Shown: in pieces, positions 20,511 through 38,540 of the stretch
Layout of the letters: each line of letters opens with the position of its first letter
Position numbering within the stretch: the first letter of the stretch is position 1
DNA from: Magnetococcales bacterium
Lineage (GTDB): Bacteria > Pseudomonadota > Magnetococcia > Magnetococcales > UBA8363
Assembly: GCA_015228925.1 (NCBI GenBank)
Contig: JADGCQ010000026.1
Span: forward strand, 1-38,540
DNA length: 38,540 nt
Reading direction: 5' to 3'
Translations under genes and position numbers: made by a program
The notes under the pieces: generated by a model
What the model was told of the DNA's origin: nothing
Database searches by the model: none
What the model saw: only the letters and a program-made list of their open reading frames with translations

Positions 20511-21722
20511 TTAGTGTTCGGCCCAGCGAATGGAATCAAGATCGATCCCCTCCTGAACCATTTCCCACAGAGGAGACATCTCCCTGAGTTTATTGACCGC
20601 AGCCACAACCGTGGCTATGGCATAATCAACTTCTTCCTCGGTGGTAAAGCGGCCCAGTCCAAAACGGATGGACGTATGGGCCAATTCCTCGTTCACCCCC
20701 AAGGCGCGTAAGACGTAGGAGGGTTCCAAAGAAGCTGAAGTACAAGCGGAACCCGAAGAGACGGCAATATCCTTGATGGCCATCATCATGGATTCCCCTT
20801 CGACGTAGGCAAAGGAGATATTCAAATTGCCGGGAAGTCGATGCACCGGATGGCCATTGAGTTCCACATGGGTCAACCGATTCATGATCCCTTGCTCCAT
20901 ACGGGTACGCAATGCCGTGATACGGGCATTTTCCTCCACCATTTCCCGACTGCAAATCGCACACGCCTCCCCCAGTCCGACAATCAAAGGGGTTGGCAAA
21001 GTTCCCGAGCGCATCCCACGCTCATGGCCACCACCAAACATCACCGCCTGAAGACGGATCCGGGGACGCCGCCGCACATACAAGGCACCGATCCCTTTGG
21101 GTGCATAGATCTTATGCCCCGATATCGACACCAGATCCAGATTCATGGCGTTGACATCCATGGGGATCTTTCCCGCCCCCTGGGCAGCATCCGTGTGAAA
21201 ATGGACCTGTCTCTGCCGACAAATAGCCCCGATTTGCGCCAACGGCTGCACGACGCCAATTTCATTATTGGCGGTCATCACCGAAACGAGGATCGTTCGG
21301 TCCGTAATGGCTGCCGCCAAAAGTTCCGGGTCCAGGCGGCCATCGGTCCCCACCGGCAGATAGGTCACCTCGAACCCTTCCGATTCCAAATGACGGCAGC
21401 AATCCAACACCGCCTTGTGTTCGATGACGGTAGTGATGATATGATTTCCCCGGGTTTTATGAAACCGGGCGATCCCCAAAATAGCGATATTGTTGGACTC
21501 GGTGGCTCCAGAGGTAAAAACAATTTCCCTGGGATCAGCACCGATCAACGTGGCCACTTGGGTCCGCGCCTGTTCCACCGCCTGTTCCGCTTCCCAACCA
21601 AACGGATGGGAACGGGAGGCGGGATTGCCAAATTTTTCGGTAAACCAAGGCAGCATGATCGCCAAAACCCGTGGATCGACGGGTGTTGTCGCCTGATAAT
21701 CCATATAGATAGGAAGTTTCAT
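20511..21722 (-). CDS. iscS: Cysteine desulfurase IscS
   Basis: IscS removes sulfur from cysteine using pyridoxal phosphate and delivers it to IscU and other acceptors. The 403-residue length matches IscS (404 in E. coli). The PLP-binding lysine is K204 in [12 protein letters not shown]; the catalytic cysteine is C327 in [17 protein letters not shown], on the long flexible loop of group I desulfurases. The C-terminus ends SIRWAEH, the usual IscU-binding tail type. It lies between a second desulfurase gene and iscU. Confidence 0.96.
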
Positions 21723-21752
21723 AAGTTTTACCTTGCGCTCTCTTTTGAGCTT

Positions 21753-22901
21753 TCAGACCATTGCGCCTGAACCACCACGAAGACGGGCCACAATGGAGAT
21801 CAATTGTTGAATCAACCGTTCCACCTCAAACATTTGGGTATTCCATCCCAGACTGATACGCACAGCACTTTGCGTCAGTGCCGCCGGCACCCCCATGGCA
21901 CCCAAGACATGGGAACCTTCCCCCTTCCCCGACGCACAAGCCGCCCCGGAACTGATACCAATTCCCGCCAGATCCAGATTCATCACCAGGGTTTCACCAT
22001 GAATCTGTTCGATCCCCACCATGGAGGTATTGGGGATACGCTCGGCCTCACTGGAAAACAGAAACAACCCCGGTATATTGGCCATAAGTTCCCCCTCCAT
22101 GAGGTTACGCAACCGGGTCATGGTGGCGATCTCTTCCTGGGGGTGATGAGAAAGAATTTGCGCCACCGCCCCCAATCCCACAATACCGGAAAGATTGGGT
22201 GTCCCTGCCCGCCGTCCCCGTTCCTGCCCCCCCCCCACAATCTGGGGTTGCAACGGCATGGTCCGTTCCATGATCAAGGCACCAACCCCCATGGGTCCAC
22301 CCAGTTTATGGGCCGAAAGGGATACCAGATCAGCCGGTAACGCCTCATAGTGCCAAGGGATGCGTCCCACACTTTGCACCGCATCGGTGTGGAATAACAC
22401 CCCCGCTTCCCGACACATCTCCCCCAGGGTATGGATGGGTTGGATGACCCCTGTTTCATTATTGGCGTGCATGACGGAAACCAAAAAGGTATCCGGTTGC
22501 AGTATTGTCCTAAGTTCCTCCGGGTTCACACGGCCAGCCCCGTCCACGTTTAAAAAGCTCACCCGATGTCCTTGCTGTGCCAGAAGGTCAAAAGCGGCCA
22601 ACACCGAAGGGTGTTCAATCCGGGAGGTGATGGCATGACCCGGTTGATTTCGCATTCCCGAAACGCCGAGGATGGCCAGGTTATTGGCTTCGGTGGCACC
22701 GCTGGTAAAGCAAACCAAGCTTTCATGGACACCAAAAAGTTGTGCCACCTGGCGTCTAGCCTGATCCAACCCCTGACGGGCACGCCGCCCAAAACCGTGG
22801 ACCGAAGTGGGATTGCCAGATGGCCCTTCCAGATACGGCAGCATGGCTGCCAGGATGCCGGGCCGCATGGTGGTGGTAGCGTTATGGTCCAGGTAAATCA
22901 T
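21753..22901 (-). CDS. Second cysteine desulfurase (NifS/IscS-like)
   Basis: This 382-residue PLP enzyme is a full-length paralog of the adjacent IscS and not a fragment. It has YLDHNATTTMRP, FTSGATEANNLAILG, the PLP lysine K199 (SLSAHKLGGPMG) and the catalytic cysteine C322 in SSGAACASGKGEGSHVLG. The loop is of the long group I type. It lacks the IscS C-terminal RWAEH-like tail, so delivery to IscU may differ. The start directly abuts the iscR stop with no spacer. Tandem desulfurases between iscR and iscU occur in several proteobacterial lineages; a NifS-like general role is inferred. Confidence 0.92.
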   Translation of the reverse strand: MIYLDHNATTTMRPGILAAMLPYLEGPSGNPTSVHGFGRRARQGLDQARRQVAQLFGVHESLVCFTSGATEANNLAILGVSGMRNQPGHAITSRIEHPSVLAAFDLLAQQGHRVSFLNVDGAGRVNPEELRTILQPDTFLVSVMHANNETGVIQPIHTLGEMCREAGVLFHTDAVQSVGRIPWHYEALPADLVSLSAHKLGGPMGVGALIMERTMPLQPQIVGGGQERGRRAGTPNLSGIVGLGAVAQILSHHPQEEIATMTRLRNLMEGELMANIPGLFLFSSEAERIPNTSMVGIEQIHGETLVMNLDLAGIGISSGAACASGKGEGSHVLGAMGVPAALTQSAVRISLGWNTQMFEVERLIQQLISIVARLRGGSGAMV

Positions 22902-33607: not shown

Positions 33608-34984
33608 ATGAAGCGAATTCTCTTTTTATTACAGGCGATATTTTTCGCCCCAGCCTGTGCCTGGGCCAATGAGGCCGCTGGCCGCGCCGAAGGTCCCGCG
33701 CTCTTTGGCATCCCCTTGGATTTCATCTTGTTCGCCCTGGTGCTTCTGGGAGTCGCGTTATTCCATAGCAAAACATTGCAGGTCGCCCTCACCGGGGTGA
33801 CAACCATCATCGTCTACAAGTTGATCTTCACCGGATTCAAACACGGCGATGGGTTGGCGGGGTTGGGGCTTCATTTTCAACACGAATGGGTGATTCTAAC
33901 CAATTTGTTCTGCCTTCTCGTGGGATTTGCCCTGCTTTCCGCCCATTTTGAACACAGCAAGGTTCCCGATGTCCTTCCCCGTTTTCTCCCCGGCGGTTGG
34001 GTTGGGAGTTTTGTTTTGCTGGTTCTTATTTTTATTCTTTCCAGTTTTCTGGATAATATCGCGGCGGCACTCATCGGTGGTACCATCGCCAAAACCGTTT
34101 TTCGTAACAAGGTGCATATCGGCTATCTTGCCGCCATCGTTGCAGCCTCCAATGCGGGTGGTGCGGGAAGCGTGGTGGGTGATACAACCACGACGATGAT
34201 GTGGATCGCCGGGATCAGCCCTGCGGCGGTTCTTCATGCCTACGCCGGTGCTGTTGTCGCTTTGGTGATTTTTGGCATTCCTGGTGCGTTGCAGCAGGAT
34301 AAATATTCTCCGATACAGGCCGATCATACGACCGTATTCAAGATCGACTTCGCGCGGGTGATGATTGTGGCGGTCATCCTGATCATCGCCATCGGCACTA
34401 ACGTTGTCGTGAACGTGAAGTTCAGTGAAGTGTCCGACAGTTTTCCATTCATCGGCGTCGCCGTCTGGGCCGCCTTGCTAGCCTGTACCCCCCTTCGGAG
34501 TCCCGACTGGAAACTTTTGCCGGAAACATTCAAAGGGAGTTTGTTCCTTCTTTCTCTGGTGGTGTGCGCATCGTTAATGCCCGTGGAAAAACTTCCCATC
34601 GCTTCCTGGGGTACTGCCCTGGGTCTGGGGTATGTCTCAGCGGTATTCGATAACATCCCCTTGACCGCCTTGGCCATCAAGCAGGGGGGATACGATTGGG
34701 GTGTTCTCGCCTACACGGTCGGTTTTGGTGGCTCTATGGTCTGGTTTGGTTCTTCGGCTGGCGTCGCCCTGTCCAATCTTTTTCCTGAGGCCAAATCGGT
34801 GGCGAACTGGATTCGTCACGGGTGGATGGTCATCGTCGCCTATACCGTCGGGTTCTTCGTAATGCTGACATTGGTTGGTTGGCATCCTTCTGCGGATCGG
34901 TATCACAACCCAGCCACCCAAGCAGAGCAATCTCTACATTCTGCGCCAACGGAACAACCCCTGGCTCCTCCTCCGAGCCATTGA
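33608..34984 (+). CDS. Ion transporter superfamily permease (NhaD/ArsB/citrate-type)
   Basis: This 458-residue membrane protein has a signal-like first helix (MKRILFLLQAIFFAPACAWA) followed by about ten hydrophobic segments. It shows the two inverted half-signatures of the ion transporter superfamily: SSFLDNIAAALIGGTIAK in the first half and SAVFDNIPLTALAIKQGG in the second. The conserved NAGGAGSVVGDTTTTMMWIAG stretch resembles the NhaD-type sodium/proton antiporter or citrate/arsenite permease branch. The substrate is not decided by sequence. The ATG at 33608 fits best because the upstream in-frame frame has no family-like residues. The C-terminal 35 residues are proline- and serine-rich and soluble. 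Confidence 0.8.
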   Translation: MKRILFLLQAIFFAPACAWANEAAGRAEGPALFGIPLDFILFALVLLGVALFHSKTLQVALTGVTTIIVYKLIFTGFKHGDGLAGLGLHFQHEWVILTNLFCLLVGFALLSAHFEHSKVPDVLPRFLPGGWVGSFVLLVLIFILSSFLDNIAAALIGGTIAKTVFRNKVHIGYLAAIVAASNAGGAGSVVGDTTTTMMWIAGISPAAVLHAYAGAVVALVIFGIPGALQQDKYSPIQADHTTVFKIDFARVMIVAVILIIAIGTNVVVNVKFSEVSDSFPFIGVAVWAALLACTPLRSPDWKLLPETFKGSLFLLSLVVCASLMPVEKLPIASWGTALGLGYVSAVFDNIPLTALAIKQGGYDWGVLAYTVGFGGSMVWFGSSAGVALSNLFPEAKSVANWIRHGWMVIVAYTVGFFVMLTLVGWHPSADRYHNPATQAEQSLHSAPTEQPLAPPPSH

Positions 34985-34993
34985 CAAAGCGAC

Positions 34994-35037
34994 GCTGTGT
35001 CTCCCCTCCCTTTATGACAGGGCAGGGGAGACACGGC
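34994..35037. terminator. Long hairpin after the transporter gene
   Basis: GTGTCTCCCCT at 34997-35007 pairs perfectly with AGGGGAGACAC at 35024-35034; CG/CG pairs extend it outward and CCCT/AGGG inward past one bulged base. It lies 10 bp after the transporter stop, so a terminator or mRNA-stabilising stem is likely, though no run of T follows. It also marks where the zeta-toxin-like fragment on the other strand loses its similarity. Confidence 0.55.
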
Positions 35038-35060
35038 AGCGAGTTAGCCCTCCCCCATCT

Positions 35061-35126
35061 TGTCTTGCCAACCCCATTGGGACCCGCAACAACAATCAGG
35101 CGTGGACTGATGGACACCTCACTCAT
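35061..35126 (-). pseudogene. Zeta-toxin/AAA ATPase-like gene, N-terminal fragment only
   Basis: The frame starting at ATG 35126 reads SPRLIVVAGPNGVGKT (residues 7-22), a clear Walker A region of zeta-toxin-like kinases (normally 190 or more residues). Directly after KT the sequence runs into the hairpin and then antisense to the transporter gene's end; the frame stays open to 34830 but without any kinase motif. The start overlaps the small upstream gene by 4 bp (ATGA), as in a two-gene toxin-antitoxin operon. The toxin part is therefore lost by deletion. Confidence 0.7.
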
Positions 35127-35305
35127 TCTACCATTCGCGCTCTGTTGGCATTAAGGATGTCATCACGCAAGCGTTGCATCAGAACGACGTGCGCTCGTTC
35201 AGCTCGCCGGTTTGCCTCAATCACCACGGCATCCATCAACGCCTTGAGTTGCTCGTCCGACGGCTCATGCTCGATGTCATTTAAATCGAACTGCATGCTT
35301 TGCAT
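35123..35305 (-). CDS. Small putative antitoxin partner of the zeta-like fragment
   Basis: This 60-residue acidic/helical protein begins MQSMQFDLNDIEHEPSDEQL and contains ALMDAVVIEANRRAERAHVV. No family name is recognised. The ATG at 35305 has GGAG 7 nt upstream; a GTG at 35371 is less likely. It is coupled by ATGA to the broken zeta-like gene, so it may be the cognate antitoxin or a regulatory small protein. It appears intact. Confidence 0.55.
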   Translation of the reverse strand: MQSMQFDLNDIEHEPSDEQLKALMDAVVIEANRRAERAHVVLMQRLRDDILNANRARMVE

Positions 35306-35374
35306 GTTATTCTCCAAAATTGCGCTGATCGCTTGGTGGCTGCGCACAAGACAAACCCGAATCGGTTTCACTTA

Positions 35375-35485
35375 GGGCACTCTCGTGCATCGTTTCGGCT
35401 TATTCTTCGATCTATTTGATACGGTGACTCCAAGTGTGCGACCCAATCAAAAATCCGAACAAAAAGATAAGCCGAAACGATGCCC
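35375..35485. mobile_element. 111-bp MITE-like element flanked by TA
   Basis: Inverted ends begin GGGCA and share TCGTTTCGGCTTAT: the right end (35467-35485, minus strand) reads GGGCATCGTTTCGGCTTAT, and the left end (35375-35403) is the same with 10 extra bases after GGGCA. A perfect 17-bp inverted match is at 35387-35403 and 35467-35483. Both sides carry TA (35373-35374 and 35486-35487), the usual target duplication of IS630/Tc1-type transposons. There is no coding capacity, so it would need a transposase elsewhere. The TA and the first base of the right end form the TAG stop of the chemoreceptor gene. Confidence 0.75.
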
Positions 35486-38292
35486 TAGCGAATGCCACCC
35501 TTACGCAAATGTTTGGCATATTTGGTATCAACAGCCATAATATGGTCAATCAGCCACTCCCGCAATAATTTAAGCAAATTCATATCAATATTTGCTTCAT
35601 CGGCCTCATACTGCTTTTGAAACGCCAATACCTGGTCCACAAAACGACTGTGCAATGCCTTGTGTGCCGTAGCGTCTGGATAATCCGTTTTTGCAAACGC
35701 ATCCTCCTCCCGTTTGAAGTGGGTGGCGGTATAATTCACCAACTCGTTGAGAATATTTCCCAGATCATTACGACCCTCCCCCCGATTGAGACCATTATAA
35801 AGTGTGTTAATCAAGGTCACAAGATTCTTATGATCTTGATCGATCGAAGGGATGTTCACCAATAATTTATCGGACCAAGCGACAATCTGCCGGTCCGCAG
35901 TTCCGACCTCCTGAACCAGATACAACCGATCAAGCAGAGAGAACATGCCACGGCGCAAACCATTGAGAACCTGCATATGTTCCCGTGCCTGTTCCAGTTT
36001 TCCATCACGCACCATGGCCGTTATATCACGAGCCGCTTTGTGGACATTTTCGTGAACGCGCCCCAACTCTCGAAACAATTCCATAGTGCCAAAAAGCTTC
36101 TCCCCTTCCGAAAAATACCATAGGCCAAATTTGCACTGTTTATGACTGGAAACCTCCTCTGGACGTAGCAGGGAACGACCACGGATAACCTGTTCCAAGC
36201 GACCGATCCACTGCAAATGCGCCTGTTTGATGGAACGAACGTCAAAGCGGGCCTCATCGACGTGGACACCACCCGCCGCCCTTTTCAGGGCATCGCTGGT
36301 CTCCTTGACGGCATCGGTCAACCGAGCCGAATATTCCACAGAACCGTCCAGGTAATGGCTCAATTGCATCGATTGCAGCATCATTTTCTGGACTTCGGCA
36401 GAAGATGAAAAAATCTCCTGGGCCGCATTCTTGACTTTAATGGCCCGATCCCGTGCAGCAGAACTCTCTTCGGCAACCTGATTGCCATTGATCGCCACCT
36501 TAGAGGCGGAAATAGCAATTTCCTGGGTTCCAGTAGCCGCTTCCACGGCAGCCCGCGCCACCTCATGTGCCGCCGATTCCAACTCGTGAGCATTGCGGGA
36601 AACCTCCAGGGCCGCCCCACTGACCTGCTCCATGGCTTTGGAGATGCCATTGACCGCTCGATGTTGGGAATCGACCGCCTTGGTAATCTCGCGGTTGGCC
36701 GCATTGATTTCCCGAACACCCTCGGTAATGCCACGGGTCGCCCGGGAGGCCTCCAAAGCCTGTGTGCGAATTTCCGCAGTCTTCTCCTGGATCATTTTGG
36801 TCGCTTCCGTCGTCTGCCGCGCCAAATCCTTGACTTCGTTGGCGACAACGGCAAATCCTAATCCCGCCTGCCCCGCCCCAGCAGCTTCGATGGCGGCGTT
36901 TAACGCCAACATGTTGGTTTGATTGGCGATGACCTTGATCAAATCCACCACTTTTCCAATCTCTGTCGCGGAAACCGCCAGCCTGTCCATGATCCCCATG
37001 GAGCCTTGCGCGTTTTGATCCGCCTTGGCCGACATATCATCCGCCTGCTGACAACGATCACGCACCGATTGCAAAGATCGGGTCAGCAATGCGACTGATT
37101 TGGAAACATTGGAAACCGAATCATTGACTTGATCCAAACTATGATTGACCCCCGCAACGTTACTACTCATTTGCTCCGCCGCCGAAGCCATCGTATTGAC
37201 GTTGGTACTCGCCTGTTCCGAAGCCGCAGCGATAGCGGTCACATTCTCGGATAACTGAAACGCCGCCTGCGAAACCGTCTCTATATTGGCGACCGCCTCC
37301 CCAATGTTGTCGTTCAAAATCCGGGTTTCCTGATCGAGAAGATCATTTTCCTTCACGACATCCCGTGCCAGAGCATGGTTGTCCAGAGAATCCTTTTTCA
37401 AAGAGTCTCGTAAAGGGACCATTTCGTCCACCACCGACATCACCGATTCCGACTGCAACAAGACCAAATGAATCACATGGGAAATCTGGTCGGCCATGGT
37501 ATTCAACCCCACGAAAATACGACCAAACGTATTGTTGGAATGAACCGGGATCCGTTGCCGCAACTCCCCCCGGCTTATCAACTCCACGTAATCCTCAATA
37601 CTGGCAATCGACTGGAGAATGGACCTTAAAAACAAGATGATCAGCATCAGACCCATCAAAGTCGATAAAAAAATAACCACCCCAAGGCCAATCTGAAATC
37701 GATCAATTGCATCCGAATGCGCCAGAATCCCCCCGTTGATTGCCGTCATCCGGTTCTGCACAGTCGCCACCAACTGATCCATTGCTTGCGATGTAGGACG
37801 ATCAATACCAGATACCGCTTTGTCGGTCCGTGGAATCGACTGAATATCCCCAGTCACATAATGACCCGCCAACGCTTCCCGATACAACTGGCCCAGTTTC
37901 CGATGGCTATCCTGCAAGGATACGATGGCTCCTGTCTCCTCACCCGCCGTCTCATAAGCACGCTGCATCGCACCAAGTTCTTCCTGAACCTCTCTCTCCA
38001 TCGCTTCAAACTGTTTAAAGTATTTAAAATCGTTTATATTCCCTTCAGCTAGATAACCACGAAGAAGAATATTTTTCCATTCGTGGATCTGACGGCCAAA
38101 CAAGGTCGCCGCCTTCTGGCCGTGGGAAGCAGCCAGGGCATACATGGCCGTCTCGCGCGATGTGACGTTTTCCCGATGAATCTGGACACTTTGCCAAACA
38201 TTCAGCCCCGTCATCACCATAATTAAAGCGATGATGAAATAAAACCGGGCATGAATCGAAAGTTCGTCAATCCACTGAAGTATGTTACGCAT
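35485..38292 (-). CDS. Methyl-accepting chemotaxis protein with CZB and hemerythrin domains
   Basis: This 935-residue chemoreceptor has a first membrane helix (about 14-35), a periplasmic helical-bundle region to about 200, a second membrane helix (200-225) and a HAMP domain (225-275). The long coiled-coil signalling domain has its tip at [20 protein letters not shown] (455-475). It then carries a CZB zinc-binding domain (about 688-757, ligands H692, C720, H747, H751) and a C-terminal bacteriohemerythrin domain (about 810-930). Predicted di-iron ligands are H821, H858, E862, H877, H881, H917 and D922. Hemerythrin suggests oxygen or redox sensing inside the cell, and CZB domains respond to zinc or reactive chlorine. 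The stop TAG is formed by the MITE-like element. The start ATG has GGAG about 12 nt upstream. Confidence 0.93.
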
Positions 38293-38512
38293 ATTCGTGT
38301 TCAGTCTCCGCTCTGTATCCCCAATCCACCTTTTAGACCATAACCTACCCCGAAAAGGGGAAAAAATCGGTTGTCCCCACCATTGTATGCAAAAAACTGA
38401 CCATGCACATCCGTATCGCCCGTCTGACGTTCATCATCCCAGGGCAATTGCATTTGGAATTGGCACGTCCAAATGCCTTGGAAAGAATCAATTATTAAAA
38501 GAAAAAAGGGGT

Positions 38513-38530
38513 CTGGGGGATTGCCCCCAG
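38513..38530. terminator. Bidirectional terminator-like hairpin at the right edge
   Basis: CTGGGGG (38513-38519) pairs with CCCCCAG (38524-38530) around a 4-nt ATTG loop, preceded by an A run and followed by GGTTTT. This is a standard intrinsic terminator in both directions. The 220 bp between it and the chemoreceptor gene hold no gene; a short CCCC-loop-GGGG stem lies near 38350 and no strong promoter was seen. Confidence 0.7.
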
Positions 38531-38540
38531 GGTTTTGATT

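Follow-up and report, generated by a model that had tools for sequence, protein, structure and literature searches.

We identified, in a 38,540-nucleotide stretch of Magnetococcales DNA (hereafter the window), a gene for a membrane chemoreceptor whose cytoplasmic tail carries a CZB domain followed by a hemerythrin domain. According to the reading that we favour, and to which we give slightly better than an even chance, the hemerythrin domain is the main oxygen or redox sensor, the CZB domain is a relay held in fixed register, and zinc is an optional second input that is intact in this receptor.

A chemoreceptor with CZB and hemerythrin domains in one tail

The receptor gene (35485..38292; this gene and all its features lie on the minus strand) starts with ATG and encodes 935 residues without an internal stop. 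Two hydrophobic stretches, at about residues 11-30 (38203..38262; Kyte-Doolittle 19-residue mean 1.68) and 203-222 (37627..37686; mean 2.73), indicate a membrane receptor, and residues 31-199 between them matched no Pfam family above its cut-off. They are followed by a HAMP domain (residues 221-271; 37480..37632; PF00672, 34 bits, cut-off 25) and an MCP signalling domain (MCPsignal, residues 413-583; 36544..37056; PF00015, 96.4 bits, cut-off 34.6), a set of features that makes the protein a membrane-bound methyl-accepting chemoreceptor. The hairpin tip lies at residues 460-471 (36880..36915), 232 residues before H692. The tip region (window 36865-36915) reads EAAGAG; E. coli-type receptors carry EAARAG at this place, and the Gly is also found in those relatives whose tips were listed.

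After the signalling hairpin, the CZB four-helix bundle spans residues 685-792 (35917..36240), as delimited by the Pfam match of 54.3 bits and by the model helices, and its Pfam core spans residues 692-757 (36022-36219; PF13682, cut-off 29.4). A linker of residues 793-806 (35875..35916), whose length varies among relatives, leads to the hemerythrin domain (residues 816-926; 35515..35847; Pfam 50.6 bits, cut-off 25.3), which was also recognized as a bacteriohemerythrin by NCBIfam (138.8 bits, cut-off 84) and by structure matches. The order along the receptor is thus HAMP, MCP hairpin, CZB and hemerythrin, each above its Pfam cut-off, and the E-values of the two tail domains (1.8e-14 and 3.3e-13) exclude chance.

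By alignment, the zinc ligands are H692 (36217..36219), C720 in a CKFGLW motif (36133..36135), and H747 and H751 in an HxxxH motif (36040..36054), and the hemerythrin ligands are H821, H858, E862, H877, H881, H917 and D922 (five His, one Glu, one Asp). The first-pass annotation had proposed a single chemoreceptor with CZB and then hemerythrin in its cytoplasmic tail after the signalling tip, with the three His and one Cys of the CZB domain and seven predicted di-iron ligands all present; the Pfam matches confirm this order, and the alignment recovered every ligand. Metal binding, the true ligand and the behaviour of the receptor are predictions from sequence.

Structure models of the tail

We modelled residues 684-935 with AlphaFold from an alignment of 36 zinc-bearing tails with the window first, and obtained two four-helix bundles (mean pLDDT 91.3, pTM 0.81). 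In this model, the hemerythrin fold of the C-terminal domain is clear. The hemerythrin domain of Desulfovibrio vulgaris DcrH (DcrH-Hr, 2avk), which is the best PDB match by sequence (4.3e-27), was matched by Foldseek at E 2.4e-06 with a TM of 0.93 to the target, and by VIA-align with Z 20.3 and rmsd 1.3 over 131 aligned residues; 4xpw reached Z 21.1, and other hemerythrins were also matched by Foldseek.

For the CZB half, the best-ranked Foldseek match was the CZB domain of DgcZ (3t9o_B), with a probability of 1.00 but an E of 0.29, non-significant alone. The superposition on 3t9o_B gave Z 12.3 and rmsd 2.8 over 109 aligned residues, compared to 11.2 for an unrelated receptor domain (6its_B), and the DosC middle domain (4zvc_B) was matched with a Foldseek probability of 0.84, an E of 0.73 and a VIA-align Z of 11.0. 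Since a Z of 12.3 is within the chance range of helical bundles, the CZB assignment is carried by the sequence score, and the CZB fold of the first bundle is consistent with the model. We also modelled the C16 paralogue, from 68 tails, with a pLDDT of 92.4 and a pTM of 0.57. Its residues 1-116 gave Z 11.4 with 3t9o_B and 10.8 with the unrelated LytSN (5xsj), and among its best 50 Foldseek rows DosC MID appeared at E 2.4 and 3t9o was absent, which makes this a weak structural test of the CZB fold in the zinc-less tail.

A family of tandem receptors in the Magnetococcales

We searched for the tail in 48 Magnetococcales genomes and obtained matches in 48/48. Counting the window's own copy, the matches listed comprised at least 119 tandems, spread over 46 of the 48 genomes: 108 are the full-length rows of a list ranked by likeness to the window, and 11 were added from later searches. 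This count leaves out many rows covering one half only, as well as three long but shorter rows (G008:C7, model 1-239; G044:C66, 1-227; G032:C295, 1-205). The tandem is a family of the order and is not special to the window gene; a tandem unique to this gene, which we had considered, was rejected on these numbers. The nearest named relatives of the tail are in Magnetococcales genomes, the closest being 88% identical.

All seven iron ligands were present in 100 of the 119 listed copies; in the remaining 19, Gln replaces H877 and every other ligand is kept. These Gln-for-H877 hemerythrins (L029, L030 and L112 among them) form a four-His variant. All four zinc ligands were found in 40/119 copies, a proportion that may overstate the keeping of the zinc site because the listing ranks by likeness to the window; both sites were complete in 31/119. 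By genome, 26 have a zinc-bearing copy, 40 a zinc-less copy and 20 both. With iron ligands near-invariant and the zinc site complete in 40 copies, the oxygen or redox site would be the constant input and zinc the optional one. That many relatives keep the iron site and lack the zinc site further suggests that the main job of the CZB domain would be to pass the hemerythrin signal onward. A combination of oxygen with zinc or oxidant signals in one receptor, as initially put forward, therefore stands as far as both sites are complete here, but probably not as a pair of equal inputs, given how unequally the two sites are kept.

Spacing of the tip, the CZB domain and the hemerythrin domain

We analyzed the distance from the hairpin tip to the H692 column. 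The tip motif was found in 97 rows, of which 96 (64/64 zinc-less and 32/33 zinc-bearing) have a distance of 232 residues and the odd one 233. The tip expression missed 22/119 rows; inspection by eye placed a variant tip at 232 in 16 of them and the tip at 233 in three, whereas one row is truncated at the contig start and two frames are too short. In contrast, the stretch after the last CZB helix, from column 789 to column 806, varied from 14 to 24 residues over the 119 rows and was 18 in 68 of them. The CZB domain is thus in near-fixed register with the signalling coil, zinc or not, and the hemerythrin domain is on a looser tether. MCP hairpins within one length class hold a fixed spacing anyway, so the 232-residue distance is partly expected.

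Three hemerythrin receptors (L052 and L053, on contigs C156 and C157 of the window's own genome, and L191) match the tail profile only from position 83-91 onward, roughly where the last CZB helix begins, and L052 and L053 have no Pfam CZB match. As judged from where these alignments start, the last CZB helix may be a shared lead-in to hemerythrin.

Zinc-less CZB halves and the history of the zinc site

We compared the profiles of the zinc-less and zinc-bearing CZB halves, and they matched with a probability of 100.0% (E 5.7e-40, 112 columns), compared to 1.0% for a reversed control. The possibility that the zinc-less halves are CZB by alignment only was thereby rejected. At E <=0.01, Pfam CZB was found in 20 of 68 zinc-less tails as against 35 of 36 zinc-bearing tails. 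The latter make up alignment A1, with 36 of the 40 zinc-bearing tails; a duplicate of the window tail and four further tails were left out of it. Scaffold residues were kept to a similar extent in zinc-bearing and zinc-less copies, respectively, for K689 (38/40 and 77/79), W725 (39/40 and 73/79) and F784 (37/40 and 78/79), whereas two residues beside the zinc site were not kept alike (W695, 30/40 and 24/79; G723, 32/40 and 35/79).

We removed the zinc-ligand columns and column 877 before computing a tail tree of 108 rows (the window and 107 others, with the eleven later rows left out). This tree is quick and unrooted, 35 of its forks are open and several of its branches are long; on it, the zinc-site state changed at least 9 times, with 4 changes forced by starred branches, and residue 877 changed at least 6 times. 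The window's subfamily comprises 25 tree rows with a support of 89, not starred, and the zinc site is present in 25/25. The zinc site, having changed several times in the family and yet been kept there, appears to be of use in this subfamily, which makes a real second input plausible; zinc is probably such an input in the subfamily. The unrooted tree gives no direction of change, and we infer loss rather than gain of the zinc site because the zinc Cys is described as near-universal in other CZB domains in the available text of a CZB survey (PMC8262984).

The same observations bear on an unlikely explanation, in which zinc is purely structural in the subfamily and senses nothing, and the receptor is a plain hemerythrin receptor for oxygen, like DcrH but with its neck lengthened. 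The 79/119 copies without the full zinc site stay homologous over the CZB half and keep the spacing, so zinc is unneeded for the relay to persist, as this explanation would have it. However, mere glue would not predict three His and one Cys in every one of the 25 subfamily rows, whose members in A1 include some that are only 32% identical to the window, and the tested CZB zinc sites, those of DgcZ and McpA, are reported to be regulatory in the parts of the publications available to us (PMC8846402, PMC13370339).

Proposed mechanism

Returning to the favoured reading of hemerythrin as sensor and CZB as relay, the N-terminus of the hemerythrin domain would shift when the di-iron site meets oxygen or is oxidised, and the linker would pull on the last CZB helix. 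The CZB bundle would then hand the change to the signalling coil and thence to the CheA kinase. In the window receptor and the rest of its subfamily, zinc at the three-His, one-Cys site could stiffen or relax this relay, and labile zinc, whose level may in turn depend on oxidants and oxygen, might tune or gate the oxygen response; we infer such zinc gating of the relay for the window's subfamily.

What CZB domains sense is under revision: a 2026 preprint, in its accessible part, describes the CZB domain of McpA as reporting redox, O2 included, through labile zinc (PMC13370339). If McpA senses O2 via labile zinc, both inputs of the window receptor would, by analogy, report oxygen by different routes. 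The McpA-mediated taxis to ROS and O2 described in that preprint and the completeness of both metal sites would also agree with two equal and independent sensors, zinc or oxidant at the CZB domain and oxygen at the hemerythrin domain, summed at the coil. We nevertheless regard such an arrangement as quite improbable, the two sites being unequally kept over the 119 copies. Least probable of all is that the hemerythrin domain responds to iron, nitric oxide or redox state instead of O2. This would have a precedent in the Ferrovum Bhr-HD-GYP protein, which air oxidises with no O2 adduct to be seen and which is regarded as sensing redox in the sections of PMC8846402 at hand, but the nearest solved domain by sequence, DcrH-Hr, binds O2 according to the accessible text of a review (PMC13401364).

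For the CZB fold in general, we tentatively propose, at somewhat less than an even chance, a mechanical relay from an oxygen sensor to an output, with zinc as an optional tuning input that is repeatedly dropped. This proposal takes in the Magnetococcales receptors as a natural series of one relay, some members having zinc and others lacking it while the geometry stays near-fixed, and DosC as a parallel with a globin.

In Magnetospirillum gryphiswaldense, the two hemerythrin MCPs were deleted singly and all the MCP mutants formed swim halos, the most notable phenotype among them being that of CetBA2, as far as the available text of that study goes (PMC12442639). These halos count against the favoured reading of hemerythrin as main sensor, with the reservation that the deleted proteins are not the window receptor.

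Comparison with known systems and distribution

Like the window receptor, DcrH of Desulfovibrio vulgaris is a membrane-bound MCP that has a HAMP domain and ends in hemerythrin. However, DcrH is described as a periplasmic part, HAMP, MCP and hemerythrin (PMC9388753, in the part available), and the MCP domain of DcrH-type receptors is directly followed by hemerythrin, whereas CZB residues 685-792 intervene in the window receptor. The CZB chemoreceptors TlpD and McpA share with it a CZB domain with three His and one Cys after the MCP coil. TlpD-like receptors are soluble according to the available text of PMC8262984, whereas the window receptor has two membrane segments and HAMP, and its CZB domain is non-terminal, with hemerythrin after it.

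The middle domain of DosC/EcGReg (4zvc) resembles the window tail in placing a CZB-like bundle, 'CZB-like' being Pfam's name, between an oxygen sensor and an output; the match of its family PF21118 to the window receptor was 19.1 bits, below the cut-off of 31. DosC differs in having a globin sensor, a diguanylate cyclase output and no MCP. Changing two residues of this middle domain abolished activity, as stated in the accessible part of PMC5549716. The CZB domain of DgcZ (3t9o) has the same ligand set and ranks first among the structural matches to model residues 1-113, but is fused to a diguanylate cyclase, with no hemerythrin.

In a phylum sample of 398 genomes, full-length tandems among the matches listed were found only in the 48 Magnetococcales and in none of the 350 others. 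Of these 350, 94 matched the tail at E 1e-20, and the 52 scored fully had rows with hemerythrin only, with CZB only or with partial coverage; the widest of these rows starts at model position 38 and is an MCP-hemerythrin protein without a Pfam CZB match. For the class to which G169 belongs, a sample of 385 genomes that partly overlaps with the phylum sample, the widest listed row at E <=1e-36 starts at position 57 and no full tandem was listed. About six candidates per genome at most were scored in the phylum scan, and seven at most in the class scan; beyond the phylum, the coverage was that of a pattern scan.

The MCP-CZB-hemerythrin architecture was not found described in the literature searched, a search that most subscription papers fell outside. 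In the available main text of a CZB survey with seven subgroups (PMC8262984), the word 'hemerythrin' occurs 0 times, and the main text of a hemerythrin survey (PMC4919030) does not name CZB. The passage of the signal from hemerythrin to MCP is not fully understood according to the accessible parts of two reviews (PMC9388753, PMC13401364). Because natural copies with and without zinc occur at near-fixed spacing, the family makes both this question and that of CZB sensing open to comparison between copies and to exchange of tails, and it names concrete oxygen-receptor candidates in a magnetotactic lineage.

Host genome and neighbourhood

The window belongs to a Magnetococcales genome of 4.25 Mb in 219 contigs. 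Since MamB (422.3 bits) and MamM (393.9 bits) both exceed their NCBIfam cut-offs of 350 and a MamE-like protein (349.7 bits, below the cut-off of 800) is on the contig of MamM, we conclude that this genome carries magnetosome genes, the magnetosomes themselves being putative. The 'possibly magneto-aerotactic' cell suggested at first agrees with these two MamB and MamM scores. As to magnetosome genes inside the window itself, its CDF and Do-type protease proteins were tried and rejected, scoring below the MamB, MamM and MamE cut-offs.

The same genome has 11 hemerythrin matches and 6 CZB matches, 5 of them above the cut-off. Its three tandems among the 119 copies are the intact window copy and two others, on contigs C16 and C206, in which H692 and C720 are replaced, and its other CZB proteins include a double-CZB receptor, a CheW-CZB protein and a CZB-GGDEF protein. 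In L055:2-1867, on contig C111 of this genome, two CZB domains stand in tandem ahead of HAMP and MCP, so this pair may be outside the membrane.

We also compared the final 10.5 kb of the window with four relatives' loci, and a conserved neighbourhood was rejected. Among the matches listed, the receptor and a short repeat are common to the window and L045, and L048 also has a gene where the window has the CDF transporter. The contig ends in a short repeat (window 38490-38540), of which the contig of the relative L045 has three copies; the assembly probably broke at this point.

Next to the receptor gene, at window 34830-35371 (minus strand), we observed two short overlapping frames, apparently truncated, one of them with a P-loop start (VVAGPNGVGKTRWG) and presumably resembling zeta-toxin/kinase proteins. 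Further away, window 20511-22901 (minus strand) holds two adjacent gene frames, which we take to be cysteine-desulfurase-like.
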